From the IMG/VR virus record IMGVR_UViG_3300025118_005384, positions 1 through 40,351 of that record: a DNA stretch of 40,351 bases; one strand, 5' to 3'. Positions 7,858 through 19,559 of this stretch are shown here, one piece after another. This stretch comes from a virus. Position numbers and translations under genes: made by a program. How positions within the stretch are numbered: position 1 is the stretch's first letter; every line of letters begins with the position of its first letter. Below the pieces are notes generated by a model. It worked only from the letters and a program-made list of their open reading frames with translations, made no database searches and was not told the DNA's origin.

Positions 7858-8699
7858 TGTCCTGTCTCTTTTTATCTGACCTTTATAGTGACCAGATTAA
7901 TGGAGGGGCGGAAAACAACGATGCAGTCCTCATTCAGCATCTGCGAGATAAAGGAGTTGAATTGGAGTGTCGTTCTACTAAGGATATCACCCCCGATGAG
8001 ATAAGTGCATTTAACTGTATTATTTTATCTAATTTTATACTCCTAAGTGAGCAAGCAAAAGCTCATTTAACTAATAATTGTCGCTACGTGATTTATGAGC
8101 ATGATCACAAATATATTAATACCCGTGACCCTTCCAAGTTTGTAGATTTTAAAGCTCCCCCTGCGCAGCTTATTAATGCCGACCTATATGCTAATGCTGC
8201 ACAGGTGGTGGTGCTAAGTAAAATATGTAAGTCGGTGGTGGAGAAAAACCTTGGCATTAACAACGTACACAGTATAGGAACTAGCCTGTGGTCAACCAAG
8301 AAGTTTAAGTTCATTAAGCAATTAATCAAAGGTGCCACAAAGACAAAGGACCTCGCAGTTTTAAATTCACCCAACCCAACCAAAGGGACTATACCTGCGG
8401 TTGAATTTTGTAAGACAAACGGAATGAGCCCAGACCTCATTAACTCCCCAGACCAGTATGAGTTTCTTCAAATTTTAAGTGAGTATCGCACCCTATTGTT
8501 TATCCCTCAGGTATTAGAGACCTTTTGCCGTTTGGTGGCAGAGGCCAAGATGTTGAATTGTAACATACAGACAAAAAAAAACTTAATTGGGCTTATGAGT
8601 GAACCTTACTCCGACCAGTCGGGGCTAGAATTGCTGGAGACCCTAGAGAAGAAAGTTGAGGAAGCTCTAGATCATTTTTATGAGTTGGTGACAGAATGA
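7857..8699 (+). CDS. Glycosyltransferase, GT4-like
   Basis: A 280-residue protein, shorter than its neighbours. It begins with DLYSDQINGGAENNDAVLI, an N-terminal GGAE loop typical of GT4 enzymes. Near the C-terminus FIPQVLETFCRLVAEAKML (residues 215-233) replaces the usual E-x7-E signature, keeping E221 and E229. Segments YVIYEHDHKY and VVLSKICK fit the GT-B N-terminal domain. It is likely a diverged glycosyltransferase with a reduced C-terminal domain. The stop overlaps the next ATG (ATGA), so it is coupled to the RpiB fusion gene. Donor and acceptor unknown. Confidence 0.72.
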   Translation: MSCLFLSDLYSDQINGGAENNDAVLIQHLRDKGVELECRSTKDITPDEISAFNCIILSNFILLSEQAKAHLTNNCRYVIYEHDHKYINTRDPSKFVDFKAPPAQLINADLYANAAQVVVLSKICKSVVEKNLGINNVHSIGTSLWSTKKFKFIKQLIKGATKTKDLAVLNSPNPTKGTIPAVEFCKTNGMSPDLINSPDQYEFLQILSEYRTLLFIPQVLETFCRLVAEAKMLNCNIQTKKNLIGLMSEPYSDQSGLELLETLEKKVEEALDHFYELVTE

Positions 8700-9556
8700 T
8701 AATAGGATTATCTTCAGATCATAATGGTGTTGAACTCAAAACGAAGATGGCGCAATATCTCCGCGATCAAGGAGATTTTAAGGTTATTGACATAGGTCCG
8801 TTTTCCTCTACTAAAAAAGTCGATTACGTCGATTATGCTAGCCAACTCTCACAGATGGTGAGCAATGGCGATCTAGATCGCGCTATATTAATCTGTGGTA
8901 CCGGAGTTGGAATGAGTATCGCAGCCAACCGGTTTGAGAAAGTCCGTGCCGCATTGGTTCACAACGTTATGACGGCACCCAAATGTCGTGAGCACAATAA
9001 CTCCAATGTGTTGTGCTTAGGTGCTTGGACCACCTCCGAAGAGGAGAATTTTGAAATCTTAGATTTGTGGCTGCAAACTATCTTTGGAGAAGGTCGACAT
9101 GTGAAGCGCGTAGAGAAGCTTTCGTCGCACCGCGCCAACATTGTATTTACAAGTGGTGTATTCGACATTTTACACGCTGGTCATATAGAACTACTACGAT
9201 TTGCTAAATCATTGGGGGACCGTCTTATTGTTGGCTTGAACTCTGATGAAAGTGTTAAGAGAATTAAGGGGCCCCATCGCCCCATTACAATGCAGGAAGA
9301 CCGAAAAGGCCTTTTGGAAGCACTCCTAGAAGTCGACGAGGTCGTTATCTTCGATGCGGACAGCCCCGCAGACTTAATATCAGATATATCCCCCACCATT
9401 CTTGTAAAAGGTGGCGAGTGGACGGTGGATGAAATTCGATCCCGCGACAGCATCCCGGCCGAAATAGAAATCAAGGTATTTCCTATTGTAGGAAAATATT
9501 CTACAACAAACATTATCAATCAGATCTCGCAAGTGGATGACGGTGAGAAACAATGA
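8696..9556 (+). CDS. Fusion of RpiB-type sugar-phosphate isomerase with HldE C-terminal-type nucleotidyltransferase
   Basis: A 286-residue protein with two whole enzymes in one frame. Residues 1-142 are an RpiB/LacAB isomerase: SSDHNGVELK (D8, H9), ICGTGVGMSIAANR (C67 at the catalytic cysteine position of E. coli RpiB), HNNSNVLCLGA and the GEGRHVKRVE end. Residues 148-286 are an RfaE-II/HldE-C nucleotidyltransferase: FTSGVFDILHAGHIELL (H160, H163), GLNSDESVKRIKGPHRP, VKGGEW and a YSTTNII end. The first domain interconverts a ketose phosphate and an aldose phosphate; the second activates a sugar 1-phosphate to an NDP-sugar, ADP in known HldE. The stop overlaps the next start (ATGA), which begins the kinase for the step between. 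Substrate (pentose or heptose) unknown. Confidence 0.9.
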   Translation: MIIGLSSDHNGVELKTKMAQYLRDQGDFKVIDIGPFSSTKKVDYVDYASQLSQMVSNGDLDRAILICGTGVGMSIAANRFEKVRAALVHNVMTAPKCREHNNSNVLCLGAWTTSEEENFEILDLWLQTIFGEGRHVKRVEKLSSHRANIVFTSGVFDILHAGHIELLRFAKSLGDRLIVGLNSDESVKRIKGPHRPITMQEDRKGLLEALLEVDEVVIFDADSPADLISDISPTILVKGGEWTVDEIRSRDSIPAEIEIKVFPIVGKYSTTNIINQISQVDDGEKQ

Positions 9557-10467
9557 CATTCCTTAATCAAAACATCTTAGTTATAGGCGACTCAATCCTG
9601 GATCATAAAGTATTTTGTAAAGCTGTTGGACTCTCGCTGGAGACACCAACTCTCAAGACGCGTCTCAACAAAGAGGAATATTCCTTTGGCGGCGCCGCCA
9701 ATGTTGTCAATAACTTGCTACTGTTGGGAGCTAAGGTAACCTTTGTGACGCCCCTTGCAACAGATTCTCACCGACATCATTATCTTGGCTGGAATCAGAC
9801 AAACTTAACTGTTAAGCCACTGCAGTTTGACGGAACAAATGTGGTCAAATCTCGATACTGGATTTCTAAGGGAGACGGTCTCTATAAGTATCTTCAGGTT
9901 AATCAAGGTACTAAATTTAATGATCCTCAGCTTGTCATAAGCACTCTTACAGAGCTTTTGTATACAGATAGATATGATAAAGCCATATTGGTGGATTATC
10001 GCGGCGGCCTCTTTGAACAGAAAGAGGAAGTAAAATTAATTTTGGACATTTTGTATGGGCACCACATAAAAACGTACGCCGCATCACAGATGTCAGATAG
10101 AAAAGGTCAATATGATATTTTCGAAGGGGCCGGCCTTATATGCTTAAATCGCGAGGAAGCTGCAGCTTTGGTGGCGGGGTTCGAACCCACAGATGAAAAA
10201 TTGAACGAATTGTCCGCGCAATTGGGGGCCCGAGTATGTGTAACACTTGGCGCAGACGGAAGCATCCTTAGTAGTCCGTCAGGCGCCGTTAGAGCGGCCG
10301 CACACCAAGTTGAAACTATTGACACCTGTGGAGCAGGAGACAGCTTCCTGGCAGCGCTGGTGGCGTCTGACGAGGATTTGGCTTTTAGTAATAAATGGGC
10401 CGCGGCATCGACATTGCAAATAGGCACAAATGCACCAAGTTTAGAGGAGGTGTTGTCATGGAGGTGA
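9553..10467 (+). CDS. PfkB-family sugar-phosphate kinase (HldA/RfaE-I-like)
   Basis: A 304-residue ribokinase-fold kinase. The N-terminus ILVIGDSILDHKVF and FGGAANVVNNLLLLG (residues 45-59) are typical of the HldE kinase domain. The C-terminal DTCGAGDSFLAAL (257-269) is the PfkB signature with D263 as catalytic base. In HldE this domain phosphorylates C1 of heptose 7-phosphate. Here it sits directly after the isomerase-nucleotidyltransferase fusion, overlapping it by four bases, and would make an aldose 1,n-bisphosphate. Together the two genes have the same domains as HldE plus an isomerase. The true sugar is not shown by sequence. Confidence 0.87.
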   Translation: MTFLNQNILVIGDSILDHKVFCKAVGLSLETPTLKTRLNKEEYSFGGAANVVNNLLLLGAKVTFVTPLATDSHRHHYLGWNQTNLTVKPLQFDGTNVVKSRYWISKGDGLYKYLQVNQGTKFNDPQLVISTLTELLYTDRYDKAILVDYRGGLFEQKEEVKLILDILYGHHIKTYAASQMSDRKGQYDIFEGAGLICLNREEAAALVAGFEPTDEKLNELSAQLGARVCVTLGADGSILSSPSGAVRAAAHQVETIDTCGAGDSFLAALVASDEDLAFSNKWAAASTLQIGTNAPSLEEVLSWR

Positions 10468-11138
10468 AGCAGCTCGTTCTAGATGCCAATCGCTGGATTG
10501 TTGAGAAGGGGCTAGTTAGTCTTACTTGGGGGAATGTTAGTGCCCTCGATGCCTCGTCTGCGGCGCTTATTATTAAGCCCTCTGGAATATCTCTCAAAGA
10601 GGCCACAGAAAAGGATATGTCTGTCGTAGCGTGGGATGGCTCGCTATTAGATGGCAAAAAGCCATCTGTTGACACCCCTACTCATCTTGAATTATATGAG
10701 CGCTTCCCTGAAGTTCGATGTGTTATCCACACTCATTCTAAATACGGCACCATCTTTGCCCAAGCTAACCGATCGGTTCCTTGCCTTGGTACTACCCACG
10801 CGGATTATTTTGCAGGAGACATCCCCTGTGTTCCACACCCTAACGAAAATCAAATAAATACAGATTATGAAATGTTTACGGGGAGAATAATAGGTGAATA
10901 TTTTAAGAAAAATAGTTTAAACTATAATCACATTCCTGGATGCATAGTGCAGGGACATGGCGTATTTACGTGGGGAGAAACGATAGACAAGGCACTTGAA
11001 ACAGCCTATGTCTTAGAGTTAGTGGCAGAAATGGCGTTTAAAACCCTTGCACTAGATTCTTACAGTTACTTAGCAGATTTTGTAGCTGAAAAACATTTTG
11101 CACGAAAGCACGGACAGACAAGTTATTATGGACAATGA
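10458..11138 (+). CDS. araD: L-ribulose-5-phosphate 4-epimerase-like (AraD family)
   Basis: A 226-residue class II aldolase/AraD protein. The ATG at 10458 has GAGGAGG at ideal spacing; a longer ORF to 10395 would lack this. Visible features are LTWGNVS (residues 22-28), PSVDTPTHLELY (69-80), metal ligands H91 and H93 in IHTHSK, THADYF with D116, H167 in QGHGVFTWG, and the C-terminal SYYGQ with Y224. D116 and Y224 correspond to the catalytic D120 and Y229 of E. coli AraD, so epimerase rather than fuculose-type aldolase activity is favoured. It should interconvert L-ribulose 5-phosphate and D-xylulose 5-phosphate. There is no other arabinose catabolism gene, so it probably feeds the sugar-activation module. 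Confidence 0.88.
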   Translation: MEVKQLVLDANRWIVEKGLVSLTWGNVSALDASSAALIIKPSGISLKEATEKDMSVVAWDGSLLDGKKPSVDTPTHLELYERFPEVRCVIHTHSKYGTIFAQANRSVPCLGTTHADYFAGDIPCVPHPNENQINTDYEMFTGRIIGEYFKKNSLNYNHIPGCIVQGHGVFTWGETIDKALETAYVLELVAEMAFKTLALDSYSYLADFVAEKHFARKHGQTSYYGQ

Positions 11139-11574
11139 AATAAAATACGGCCGACAAGAGCTACCTCCCGTTACAACGGTTGTTAAAGAGGTCGAAAAGT
11201 ACTGGGGTGGTATGAAAACCCTATTCGAGAATGACCTGTACTCCGTCAAGAGAATCTTTATGAAAAAAGATACTCAGAGTAGTATGGAGTATCATGTGAA
11301 AAAAGAGGAATCTTATTACATCGAATCTGGAAAGCTTAAAGTAGGTACCCGTATAGGCCGCGCCGTGAATACCTCACTGATACTTAATCAGGGTGATGTA
11401 TTTCATATACCAGTAGGGTTTATGCATATGCGCATAGCTCTAGAAGATACTGTTATTATAGAGTTCTCCACACTAGATGATGATGGTGACTCGCATATAG
11501 TAGAAGATGGGAAAACATATACCCACGTAGACGACCCTTGGGCTCGCCCTCGGCAAACAAAGAAAGAGACTTAA
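11128..11574 (+). CDS. Cupin protein, mannose-6-phosphate isomerase-like
   Basis: A 148-residue single-domain cupin. The ATG at 11128 overlaps the araD-like gene by 11 bases. YHVKKEESYYIESGKLKV (residues 55-72) supplies H56 and E60/E61, and VFHIPVGFMHMRIALED (91-107) supplies H100, the usual metal ligand set. Cupins of this kind resemble the C-terminal domain of type II phosphomannose isomerase/GMP enzymes and sugar-phosphate isomerases. It may isomerise or epimerise a sugar phosphate. A second cupin follows the second kinase at 14545, which hints that each module has its own cupin. Function inferred from fold and place only. Confidence 0.72.
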   Translation: MDNEIKYGRQELPPVTTVVKEVEKYWGGMKTLFENDLYSVKRIFMKKDTQSSMEYHVKKEESYYIESGKLKVGTRIGRAVNTSLILNQGDVFHIPVGFMHMRIALEDTVIIEFSTLDDDGDSHIVEDGKTYTHVDDPWARPRQTKKET

Positions 11575-11575
11575 A

Positions 11576-12244
11576 ATGAAACTGTTTATTGATACAGCAA
11601 ACCTAGAAGAAATTGAAAGCGCTTTAGAGCGCGGAGTAGTACAGGGAGTGACGACTAATCCATCCCTCTTATCGAAAGAGCCACAGGCGGACTTTTATTC
11701 CCATATTCAAAAGATAGCAAACTTATGTACCGAACTCGCACCTGGTATTCCGCTCTCGGTTGAAGTCTTTGCAGAAGAGGCTGACGAAATGATAGCCCAG
11801 GCTCAGGAGATTATGAAGACTATAGAATATACTAACTTAAATATCAAGGTGCCGATCGGCTATGATGAATTGCGAGTCATTAGTGAGCTGAAAGAATTAG
11901 GTATCCCGGTTAATTGTACCTGCTGCTTCACAGCGACCCAGTTGCAGTTAGCTGCATTGGCCGGTGCACGCTATGTCTCGCTCTTTTATAATCGAGCACT
12001 CGATAGCCAGATCGATGCTATTGAGATTTTAGAGCGCACGCGTGCATTTATTGATTTTAATGAACTTGAGTGTGAAATAATTGCTGGCAGTATTCGTAAT
12101 GCTTATGACCTAGAGGACTGTTGGGCCGCCGGCTGCGATATTGTTACCGCAGGACTCCCTGTTATTAAGAAGTCCGTATCCCACCTCAAAACAGATGAAT
12201 CGGTTAATGGATTTTTGAAGGATTTCGCAGCATGGATAAAATGA
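11576..12244 (+). CDS. talC: Transaldolase, TalC/FSA subfamily
   Basis: A 222-residue TIM-barrel protein of the small transaldolase/fructose-6-phosphate aldolase group. MKLFIDTANLEEI has D6; GVTTNPSLL (residues 24-32) is conserved; NLNIKVPI carries the Schiff-base lysine K91. The segment ARYVSLFYNR has Phe at 137, where E. coli FSA has Tyr131; Phe at this point is typical of true transaldolases. It would exchange fructose 6-phosphate and erythrose 4-phosphate with sedoheptulose 7-phosphate and glyceraldehyde 3-phosphate. TalC is a known auxiliary gene in cyanophages, but here it sits among sugar-activation genes, so it may supply the sugar precursor. Confidence 0.9.
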   Translation: MKLFIDTANLEEIESALERGVVQGVTTNPSLLSKEPQADFYSHIQKIANLCTELAPGIPLSVEVFAEEADEMIAQAQEIMKTIEYTNLNIKVPIGYDELRVISELKELGIPVNCTCCFTATQLQLAALAGARYVSLFYNRALDSQIDAIEILERTRAFIDFNELECEIIAGSIRNAYDLEDCWAAGCDIVTAGLPVIKKSVSHLKTDESVNGFLKDFAAWIK

Positions 12245-12561
12245 CCTATGTAATTGATATCGACGACACCATATGCCGAACAAACGAAAGCGACTATGAA
12301 AATTCAGAGCCGATGCAACATCGCATAGATGCTGTTAATAAGCTCTATGATGACGGCCACACGATTTTGTTTTTGACCGCGCGCGGTATGTGCCGCAACA
12401 AGAACCATCAATTAGACGCTATTGCAGAACTACACAAGTTTACGCATGATCAGCTGGTAAGATGGGGAGTTAAATTTCATAAGCTTTTCTTAGGTAAGCC
12501 GGCCGGAGATATCTATATTGATGACAAGGGCTGCAAGGATATAGATTTTTTTGATGAGTGA
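12232..12561 (+). CDS. Small HAD-superfamily phosphatase
   Basis: A 109-residue minimal HAD phosphatase. Motif I is VIDIDDT with D9 and D11, motif II is FLTARG with T49, and motifs III/IV are K89 in LGKPAG with DIYIDDKG (D97, D98). The ATG at 12232 has AAGGA nine bases upstream; an alternative ATG at 12241 overlaps the previous stop. The protein lacks a cap domain, as in small capsule/LPS-cluster phosphatases and the GmhB group. In this context it could remove the distal phosphate from a sugar 1,n-bisphosphate, the step between kinase and nucleotidyltransferase. It overlaps the next gene by eight bases. Confidence 0.78.
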   Translation: MDKMTYVIDIDDTICRTNESDYENSEPMQHRIDAVNKLYDDGHTILFLTARGMCRNKNHQLDAIAELHKFTHDQLVRWGVKFHKLFLGKPAGDIYIDDKGCKDIDFFDE

Positions 12562-13375: not shown

Positions 13376-13768
13376 GTGTCACAGATAGTTTTTACAAACG
13401 GATGCTTTGATATTCTGCATCGAGGACATTTCGAGCTTTTAAAGTATTGTAAATCCTTGGGAACTGTCATAGTGGGCTTAAACAGCGATGCTAGCGTAGC
13501 ACGCCTTAAGGGCCCAACCCGACCTTTTTTCAATACCGCGGACAGACAGTTTGCACTAGAGAGCTGCAGCTATGTGGATAAGGTGGTGGTATTCGACGAG
13601 GATACACCATACAATCTCATCAAAGAATTGGCGCCCGATATTGTCGTAAAGGGAGGCGATTATAAAGCCGAAGAAGTTGTAGGTTATGATCTAGCCGAGG
13701 TGAAGATTTTTAATTTTGTTGATGGTTATTCAACAAGCAAAGTATTAGAAGAGAAGGAAGATGTTTAA
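13376..13768 (+). CDS. HldE C-terminal-type nucleotidyltransferase (stand-alone)
   Basis: A 130-residue single-domain nucleotidyltransferase starting at GTG, directly after the preceding stop. FTNGCFDILHRGHFELL (residues 6-22) has the HxGH motif (H15, H18). GLNSDASVARLKGPTRP, VFDEDTPYNLI, VVKGGDY and the YSTSKVLE end match HldE-C/HldC. It is about the length of stand-alone HldC and resembles the second domain of the fusion at 8696, so the phage has two such activities in this island. It should form an NDP-sugar from a sugar 1-phosphate. It overlaps the next kinase gene by eight bases, giving the order nucleotidyltransferase then kinase, as in the first module. Confidence 0.88.
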   Translation: MSQIVFTNGCFDILHRGHFELLKYCKSLGTVIVGLNSDASVARLKGPTRPFFNTADRQFALESCSYVDKVVVFDEDTPYNLIKELAPDIVVKGGDYKAEEVVGYDLAEVKIFNFVDGYSTSKVLEEKEDV

Positions 13769-14561
13769 GATATTACTGATTGGCGATGCTTGCGAGGATG
13801 TATATCATTATGGCTCGATCGATCGATTGTGTCCGGAAGCACCGGTACCTATCGTGAGACACACCCACACCGAAACCCGGGACGGCATGTGTCTGAACGT
13901 AAGAAACAACCTCCAGACGTTTGGTATGTCCGTTGAGGTTTTGTGCAATGCTGAGCTGATTCAAAAACAGCGTTTTGTAGACCTTCGAACAAAGCAGCAC
14001 TTACTTCGAGCCGACTTCGGGGAAAACGAAAGATTAGCTCAATGCGACGCTGCAAAAGTCGAAAACTATGACTTCGCGTCTTTAGATGCGGTGGTGATAG
14101 CAGATTACAATAAAGGATTTGTCGAAAAAGAAGTCATCGAGATTGTGACGAAGAAGGCTGCGGCAGAAAACATTAACGTCTTTGTTGACTCTAAAAAAAG
14201 CGACCTGAGCGCGTATAAGAATTGCATCATAAAGATTAACAAATTAGAATTCAATAAGCTGAAAAAACAACCAGAACAGTGTGAGCTGATTATAACAATG
14301 GGAGAAGAGGGGGCCCGATGGAATGGAAACACATACCCCACAGAAGCCTGTGATGTGTTTGATGTGTGCGGTGCCGGCGACACTTTCTTGGCAGCCCTGG
14401 TTTATGAACAACTCGAAACTAAGTCAATCGAAAAAGGAATTCAGTTTGCTAACCATTGCTCACGCTTGGTGGTGGGCAAATTTGGAACGTACACACTAAC
14501 TTCCGAGGATGTTAAAAATATAAGAGACAAGGGAGAAAATCAAAATGAAGTTTGTACCTAA
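13761..14561 (+). CDS. PfkB-family kinase, HldA-like with altered substrate loop
   Basis: A 266-residue ribokinase-fold kinase. The N-terminus LLIGDACEDVYHYGSIDRL followed by CPEAPVPIVR is very like the HldE kinase opening. The C-terminal DVCGAGDTFLAAL (201-213) has D207 as base. The usual GGAANVA substrate segment reads RDGMCLNVRNNLQTFG, so the two glycines and alanines are lost, and the protein is about 40 residues shorter than typical HldA. The substrate pocket may differ, or activity may be weaker. It overlaps both the nucleotidyltransferase upstream and the cupin downstream, so the three are probably translated together. Confidence 0.83.
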   Translation: MFKILLIGDACEDVYHYGSIDRLCPEAPVPIVRHTHTETRDGMCLNVRNNLQTFGMSVEVLCNAELIQKQRFVDLRTKQHLLRADFGENERLAQCDAAKVENYDFASLDAVVIADYNKGFVEKEVIEIVTKKAAAENINVFVDSKKSDLSAYKNCIIKINKLEFNKLKKQPEQCELIITMGEEGARWNGNTYPTEACDVFDVCGAGDTFLAALVYEQLETKSIEKGIQFANHCSRLVVGKFGTYTLTSEDVKNIRDKGENQNEVCT

Positions 14562-14886
14562 AGGCTGGGGCTTTGAAAAGTGGATTGTTAATAACGAAGA
14601 GTATTGTGGAAAATTACTTTACTTTGTTAAGGGCAAAAGATGCTCTTGGCATTATCACGTATTAAAAGATGAAGTATTTTATATACAATCAGGGAAAATT
14701 CTGGTAAAATATTCGGAGAGTGATGATCTTGAATCAGCCGAAGAGAAAACTTTAGAGCGCGGAGACAATTTTCACGTATATCGAGGATTGCGTCATCAGA
14801 TGGTTGCTCTAGAGGACACCGAGCTGTTTGAGTTCTCAACTCAGCACTTTGACTCGGATAGTCATAGGATTATTAAAGGAGACTAA
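14545..14886 (+). CDS. Cupin protein, sugar-phosphate isomerase-like
   Basis: A 113-residue single cupin. WHYHVLKDEVFYIQSGKI (residues 35-52) gives H36, H38 and E43, and H84 in GLRHQMVALED completes a standard four-ligand metal site. It ends with EFSTQHFDSDSHRI, similar in pattern to EFSTLDDDGDSHIV in the cupin at 11128, so the two are probably related. Such cupins resemble the mannose-6-phosphate isomerase domain. It starts 17 bases before the kinase gene ends. A role as isomerase or epimerase in the second sugar module is inferred from place. Confidence 0.72.
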   Translation: MKFVPKGWGFEKWIVNNEEYCGKLLYFVKGKRCSWHYHVLKDEVFYIQSGKILVKYSESDDLESAEEKTLERGDNFHVYRGLRHQMVALEDTELFEFSTQHFDSDSHRIIKGD

Positions 14887-18971: not shown

Positions 18972-19559
18972 ATGAGTTTTGAGGTAATCAAAACATTTGA
19001 AGATGAGTTGGCAAAGTTTTTTGGTTCTCCTTATGCAGTTACAACTGATTGCTGCACACACGCTGTAGAGTTGTGTTTGCGGTATAAAGATATCAAGTCG
19101 ATTAGCGTCCCGAAGCACACTTACATATCTATTCCTCTTTTGTCCCGCAAGCTTGGCCTTGACTTAGAGTGGCGAGACGAGGAGTGGCTGGATTACTACA
19201 CAGTTGCTGATAATATCATTGATGCCGCAGTTCTGTGGAAGCCGGAGAGTTATATCCCGGGAACCTTTATGTGTGTGAGCTTTCAGTTCAAGAAACACTT
19301 GAGCCTAGGCCGCGGAGGCGTTATCCTCACAGATAATAAAGAGGCCGCGCTAGATTTAAAAAAGATGTCGTATGATGGACGAACACCGGATACCCCATGG
19401 GCAACACAGAATATTAGCACTATGGGATATCATTACTATATGACACCCGAGACGGCAATCAACGGATTAGAGAAGCTGCCTGGGGCAATTGTCAACCCTC
19501 CTAAGCAGTGGACGATAGAGGACTGGCCAGACTTAACAAAAATGGAGATATTTAAGTGA
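18972..19559 (+). CDS. Compact DegT/DnrJ/EryC1-type PLP aminotransferase
   Basis: A 195-residue protein with the core of the DegT sugar aminotransferases, which are usually about 370-400 residues. VTTDCCTHAVELCLR (residues 23-37) matches the substrate/PLP-phosphate loop, NIIDAAVLW (81-89) matches the EDAAQ aspartate segment, and SFQFKKHLSLGRGG (103-116) matches the PLP-lysine region, probably K108. YHYYMTPETAINGLEKL resembles the NYRM segment. The internal spacing is shortened throughout and the C-terminal small domain is missing. The next gene starts within its stop, so there is no downstream remnant. It is either a working miniature enzyme or a reduced one. Confidence 0.72.
   Translation: MSFEVIKTFEDELAKFFGSPYAVTTDCCTHAVELCLRYKDIKSISVPKHTYISIPLLSRKLGLDLEWRDEEWLDYYTVADNIIDAAVLWKPESYIPGTFMCVSFQFKKHLSLGRGGVILTDNKEAALDLKKMSYDGRTPDTPWATQNISTMGYHYYMTPETAINGLEKLPGAIVNPPKQWTIEDWPDLTKMEIFK

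Follow-up and report, generated by a model that had tools for sequence, protein, structure and literature searches.

The results of this work suggest that a conserved cassette of six genes, found in many aquatic phages and a few bacteria, has the look of a pathway, not described before, that would supply surface glycans with an activated sugar, probably a heptose. The cassette was analysed in a virus record of 40,351 bases (the window), whose right half carries tail and baseplate genes. Its first gene (8696..9556, + strand) encodes, from an ATG start and in a single frame, a protein of 286 aa made of an RpiB/LacAB domain (residues 3-142), a linker (about 138-147) and an HldE-C-type nucleotidyltransferase domain (about 147-279). 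Judging from the sequences of the two halves and of their neighbours, it seems fairly probable that this fusion is the bifunctional first-and-last enzyme of an ADP-heptose-like NDP-sugar pathway, with RpiB standing in GmhA's place. In known ADP-heptose synthesis the isomerase is GmhA, a protein of the SIS fold.

The preliminary description had read one frame with a full RpiB and a full HldE-C domain, which Pfam, NCBIfam and AlphaFold2 all bear out, and had placed C67, HAGH (160-163) and STTN (269-272) where they are indeed found. AlphaFold2 gives two confident domains (mean pLDDT 88.9) joined by a low-confidence linker (138-144), and Foldseek returns RpiB 3HE8 and HldC 5XF2 as the solved relatives of the model. 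An ATGA overlap links the start of the gene to the upstream stop codon, and at its other end the stop is likewise overlapped by the kinase start, as would be expected in a compact operon. The idea that an internal start yields two products was rejected, since 27/39 fusions have no in-frame ATG or GTG near the linker (TTG not counted), so that translation of the second half on its own is not conserved among them.

Full-length fusions were found in about 49 virus contigs in two scans of such contigs. They are 49-68% identical to that of the window, except for one (L002) which is 100% identical and probably comes from the same virus. Clustering at 95% leaves 39 non-redundant sequences, and in a tree the nucleotidyltransferase domains of all 39 form one clade (SH-aLRT 98). 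A misassembly or frameshift joining two genes, one of the doubts raised in the preliminary description, is therefore extremely improbable and can be discarded, given 39 non-redundant copies from independent assemblies. The RpiB domains of the fusions also cluster, with one very long branch and one unfused RpiB among them. The latter belongs to a virus locus (L205) where RpiB adjoins AraD, kinase, transaldolase and cupin genes, with the HAD and HldE-C genes a few kb further on, which suggests that the association is older than the fusion or arose in parallel with it.

In cells the fusion is rare. Six full fusions were seen among the best 80 of 429 relatives in a genome collection, the cellular carriers being an archaeon MAG, an Acidobacteria MAG, a Longimicrobiales MAG, a Prochlorococcus single-cell genome and two Candidatus Taylorbacteria, to which a further genome from the Taylorbacteria order is added. 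Across the groups searched, made up of relatives of these genomes, it occurs in 1/350, 3/397 and 1/87 genomes, centre genomes included, counts from which divergent cellular fusions may escape because the peptides scanned for were those of the phage form. The other doubt of the preliminary description, that many cellular homologs of known function would exist, likewise falls away, as those found are few and none has a known function; a common cellular architecture was rejected on the counts above. The short MAG contigs could be phage-derived, and the Prochlorococcus contig holds a complete cassette amid surface-polysaccharide genes. GenBank phages and plasmids gave zero matches at 80% query coverage, the full-length fusion is absent among the PDB and BFVD matches listed, and no description of fusion or cassette was found in the open-licence papers searched, PDB, BFVD or GenBank phages. 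Four near-identical fusion phages (L176, L177, L178 and L180) carry two photosystem reaction-centre genes each, so part of this phage family probably infects cyanobacteria; 13 other records are without such genes.

The isomerase half is a genuine member of the RpiB/LacAB family. Pfam LacAB_rpiB matches at E 1.3e-47 over the whole profile (1-138), the NCBIfam rpiB equivalog TIGR01120 scores 142.1 bits (cutoff 138.65), and the equivalents of EcRpiB D9, H10, Y43, C66, T68, H99, N100, R133 and R137, that is, the catalytic set and two phosphate arginines, are 100% kept in the 39 fusions. It thus shares with RpiB/AlsI (ribose-5-P and allose-6-P isomerases) and LacAB the fold, the Cys67 base, Asp8-His9, Thr69, His100, Asn101 and two phosphate arginines (134, 138), and differs from them by a Trp in the place of Arg110 (E. 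coli numbering) and by the added nucleotidyltransferase. This Trp, at residue 111, occurs in 39/39 fusions, as opposed to an Arg in 71/80 unfused relatives, which means that the third phosphate-binding arginine of a ribose-5-phosphate isomerase B (MtRpiB Arg113, E. coli Arg110) is missing; the correspondence with MtRpiB Arg113 was derived from the numbering of L. donovani RpiB by offset (PMC4783025). In MtRpiB that arginine binds phosphate, and LacAB, an isomerase of hexose phosphates, has another residue in its place (PMC3755991). An invariant change of Arg to Trp in the phosphate pocket speaks against plain ribose-5-phosphate, which is probably not the substrate of this half; some pentose phosphate is possible, since the rpiB cutoff is still passed. 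Asn10, His89 and Asn90 are also characteristic of the fusions, and in L205 the unfused RpiB already shows Asn10 together with Trp111.

The second half matches Pfam CTP_transf_like (residues 152-249, E 3e-17) and has all the nucleotidyl-transfer motifs (HxGH, RP and STT). With NCBIfam rfaE_dom_II (TIGR02199, residues 140-278) it scores 156.3 bits against a cutoff of 181.5, which places it in the same family yet beneath the equivalog line. Compared with the heptose-1-P adenylyltransferases (HldE C-domain/HldC/RfaE2), it has the same HxGH, RP and STT and its nearest structure is HldC 5XF2, whereas a GGEW loop with R248, R250 and D251 replaces GGDY, and its partner is an isomerase instead of the HldE kinase. 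E241, R248 and R250 are found in 39/39 fusions, while unfused relatives have D in 38/43 at position 241 and mixed residues at 248 and 250; the separate nucleotidyltransferase of L205 has ordinary residues at these fusion-specific sites. Canonical D,D-manno-heptose-1-phosphate is, on these residues, probably not the substrate. That specificity residues are altered in both halves together fits one shared, non-standard sugar.

The fusion is followed on the same strand by five genes in the order kinase, AraD, cupin, transaldolase and HAD. In the 31 representative loci, i.e., those with more than 5.5 kb downstream of the fusion, the kinase, cupin and transaldolase are never missing (31/31), the HAD occurs in 29/31 and the AraD in 28/31, so that AraD was not found in three of them and HAD in two. 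The kinase (9553..10467) is of the PfkB family and HldE-N/HldA-like (Pfam PfkB, E 1.5e-21), its start and the stop of the fusion share an ATGA, and its GAGD motif is invariant across loci; it scores 90.6 bits with TIGR02198 (HldE-N type, cutoff 345), and its top PDB match is the heptose-7-P kinase 4E84. The AraD-type (class II) sugar-phosphate 4-epimerase (10458..11138; longest ORF from 10395) passes PRK08193 with 264.9 bits (cutoff 257) and has AraD 1JDI as its top PDB match. Its Zn His triad and Asp76, along with Asp120 and Tyr229 of the epimerase reaction, are kept in 32/32, and Ser75 is changed to Val in 28/32. The single-domain cupin (11131..11574; longest ORF from 11098) has a weak Pfam similarity to phosphomannose-isomerase-C, and AlphaFold2 and Foldseek give a cupin fold with matches covering several cupin functions. 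The small transaldolase (11576..12244) is of the TalC/FSA family (Pfam TAL_FSA, E 1.5e-44), with Lys85, Phe131 and Arg134 (E. coli FsaA numbering) in 34/34; Phe131/Arg134 is the pattern of transaldolases and not of fructose-6-P aldolases. The small HAD-like DxD protein (12232..12561) is a candidate phosphatase with zero Pfam matches and a PDB match to a capsule biosynthesis protein (9IQW, E 3e-13).

What this gene set lacks is the SIS-fold GmhA of canonical ADP-heptose synthesis: a search for SIS_2 domains in 17 virus records that carry the fusion, up to 284 kb long and some perhaps incomplete, gave no match, with a control search positive in E. coli. Use of the host's GmhA by these phages is possible. 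The preliminary description had proposed that an RpiB-type enzyme heads a dedicated NDP-sugar pathway whose two ends are united in one protein; the cassette and the 17 records without SIS_2 lend weight to this idea, which is the best supported of the readings considered and is widened here by genes that the description had not listed (kinase, cupin, transaldolase, HAD and usually AraD).

The logic of such a pathway is well supported by gene content; the substrate, chain length, stereochemistry, nucleotide, role of the cupin and order of steps are inferred. The transaldolase would make or replenish a ketose phosphate, with sedoheptulose-7-phosphate as the likeliest one, and AraD, where present, would invert C4. 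The RpiB half would then convert ketose to aldose phosphate, which is GmhA's job, the PfkB kinase would phosphorylate C1, the HAD protein would take off the terminal phosphate, and the HldE-C half would transfer a nucleotide, most likely AMP, onto the sugar-1-phosphate, after which neighbouring glycosyltransferases could build this sugar into a glycan of a surface or of the virion. Transaldolase products have a D-threo C3-C4 pattern in common. Inversion of sedoheptulose-7-phosphate at C4 would give D-manno-heptulose-7-phosphate, and from it a D-glycero-D-galacto (or talo) heptose; reasoning from configuration, a LacAB-like isomerisation would lead to D-glycero-D-galacto-heptose-7-P. Given an ADP-heptose-like pathway, a seven-carbon sugar is more likely than not. 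The nearest solved structures of both kinase and nucleotidyltransferase are heptose enzymes; the scores of both below the heptose equivalog cutoffs may count against this reading. The fuller statement, that transaldolase, AraD and an RpiB with a rebuilt phosphate pocket form an undescribed phage/bacterial route to a non-manno heptose phosphate, whose activation would fall to the second domain of the isomerase protein, is tentative and to be held at somewhat under an even chance.

Known systems share parts of this design. Bifunctional HldE (kinase plus adenylyltransferase) also joins two NDP-sugar steps in one chain, the nucleotidyltransferase coming last, but the N-terminal half of the fusion is an isomerase and its kinase is a separate adjoining gene. 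The C. jejuni GmhA-HddA-GmhB-HddC route to GDP-heptose has the same order of isomerase, C1 kinase, phosphatase and nucleotidyltransferase; its isomerase is GmhA instead of RpiB, and its stereochemistry is altered after activation, whereas in the pathway proposed here this would happen before (PMC10680097). The heptose-type cassette of cyanophage S-CAM1 has an HldE-C gene, kinase, small HAD and cupin in a row, gene kinds common to both, and is without RpiB, AraD and transaldolase. The window's cassette thus amounts to that set plus these three, which look like added entry steps for supply and isomerisation. The S-CAM1 kinase shares 43% identity with the second kinase of the window, and a 107-aa S-CAM1 gene annotated as phosphoheptose isomerase is 49% identical to the window's HAD (12232-12561). 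Such a cyanophage 'phosphoheptose isomerase' was considered as a GmhA and rejected, the gene being a small HAD. The genes so labelled at NC_020837.1 (L223:5709-6032), L224:5658-6005 and L225:6751-7089 encode small DxDGT HAD-like proteins, not SIS-fold ones, and the labels are likely to be annotation errors.

A pentose version of the pathway has to be weighed, where xylulose-5-P or ribulose-5-P would pass through AraD/RpiB to a pentose-5-P and then, by kinase, HAD and nucleotidyltransferase, to an NDP-pentose. By family, both RpiB and AraD act on pentose phosphates, and RpiB passes the rpiB cutoff; even so, the phosphate Arg has become Trp in 39/39, AraD Ser75 has become Val in 28/32, nucleotidyltransferase and kinase are heptose-type, and the transaldolase is not obviously needed, which together make this version unlikely, if worth keeping in mind. 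The cupin raises another issue. Universal in the 31 loci and without a firm role, it could be an isomerase itself, and if it were the core ketose-aldose isomerase, RpiB and AraD would run a second interconversion. Its presence in cyanophage cassettes without RpiB (S-CAM1), its weak PMI-C match in Pfam and the cupin sugar isomerases among its fold matches favour this, but those matches spread across many cupin functions and cyanophages may draw on host GmhA, so we give it a low probability.

It is slightly less probable still that the two halves serve different pathways and were fused for co-expression, RpiB for pentose-phosphate/nucleotide supply and the other half for ADP-heptose with host enzymes. 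Pentose-phosphate genes, transaldolase among them, do occur elsewhere in phages. Against this stand the unfused L205, with RpiB beside AraD, kinase, transaldolase and cupin and with HAD and HldE-C a few kb off, the altered specificity residues in both halves, and a kinase that is always present.

Should a single pathway to an activated heptose-type sugar be correct, it would constitute a second, SIS-independent entry to such sugars, borne mainly by phages, would point to an as yet undescribed activated sugar, and would give phage transaldolase genes in such cassettes a part in biosynthesis. Being small and self-contained, the cassette can be reconstituted in vitro and the product identified by mass spectrometry and NMR.

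Other features of the window are worth recording. A second HldE-type set (nucleotidyltransferase, kinase and cupin; 13376-14886), without an isomerase, follows the cassette and is also found in L166, and a third, divergent HldE-C-like nucleotidyltransferase (1829-2335) lies remote from it. Genes for tRNA-Thr and tRNA-Asn stand near each other at 1593-1799. A DegT-family aminotransferase (18972-19559) has 195 aa as against a profile of 360 positions, with a similar length in L166 and L182.
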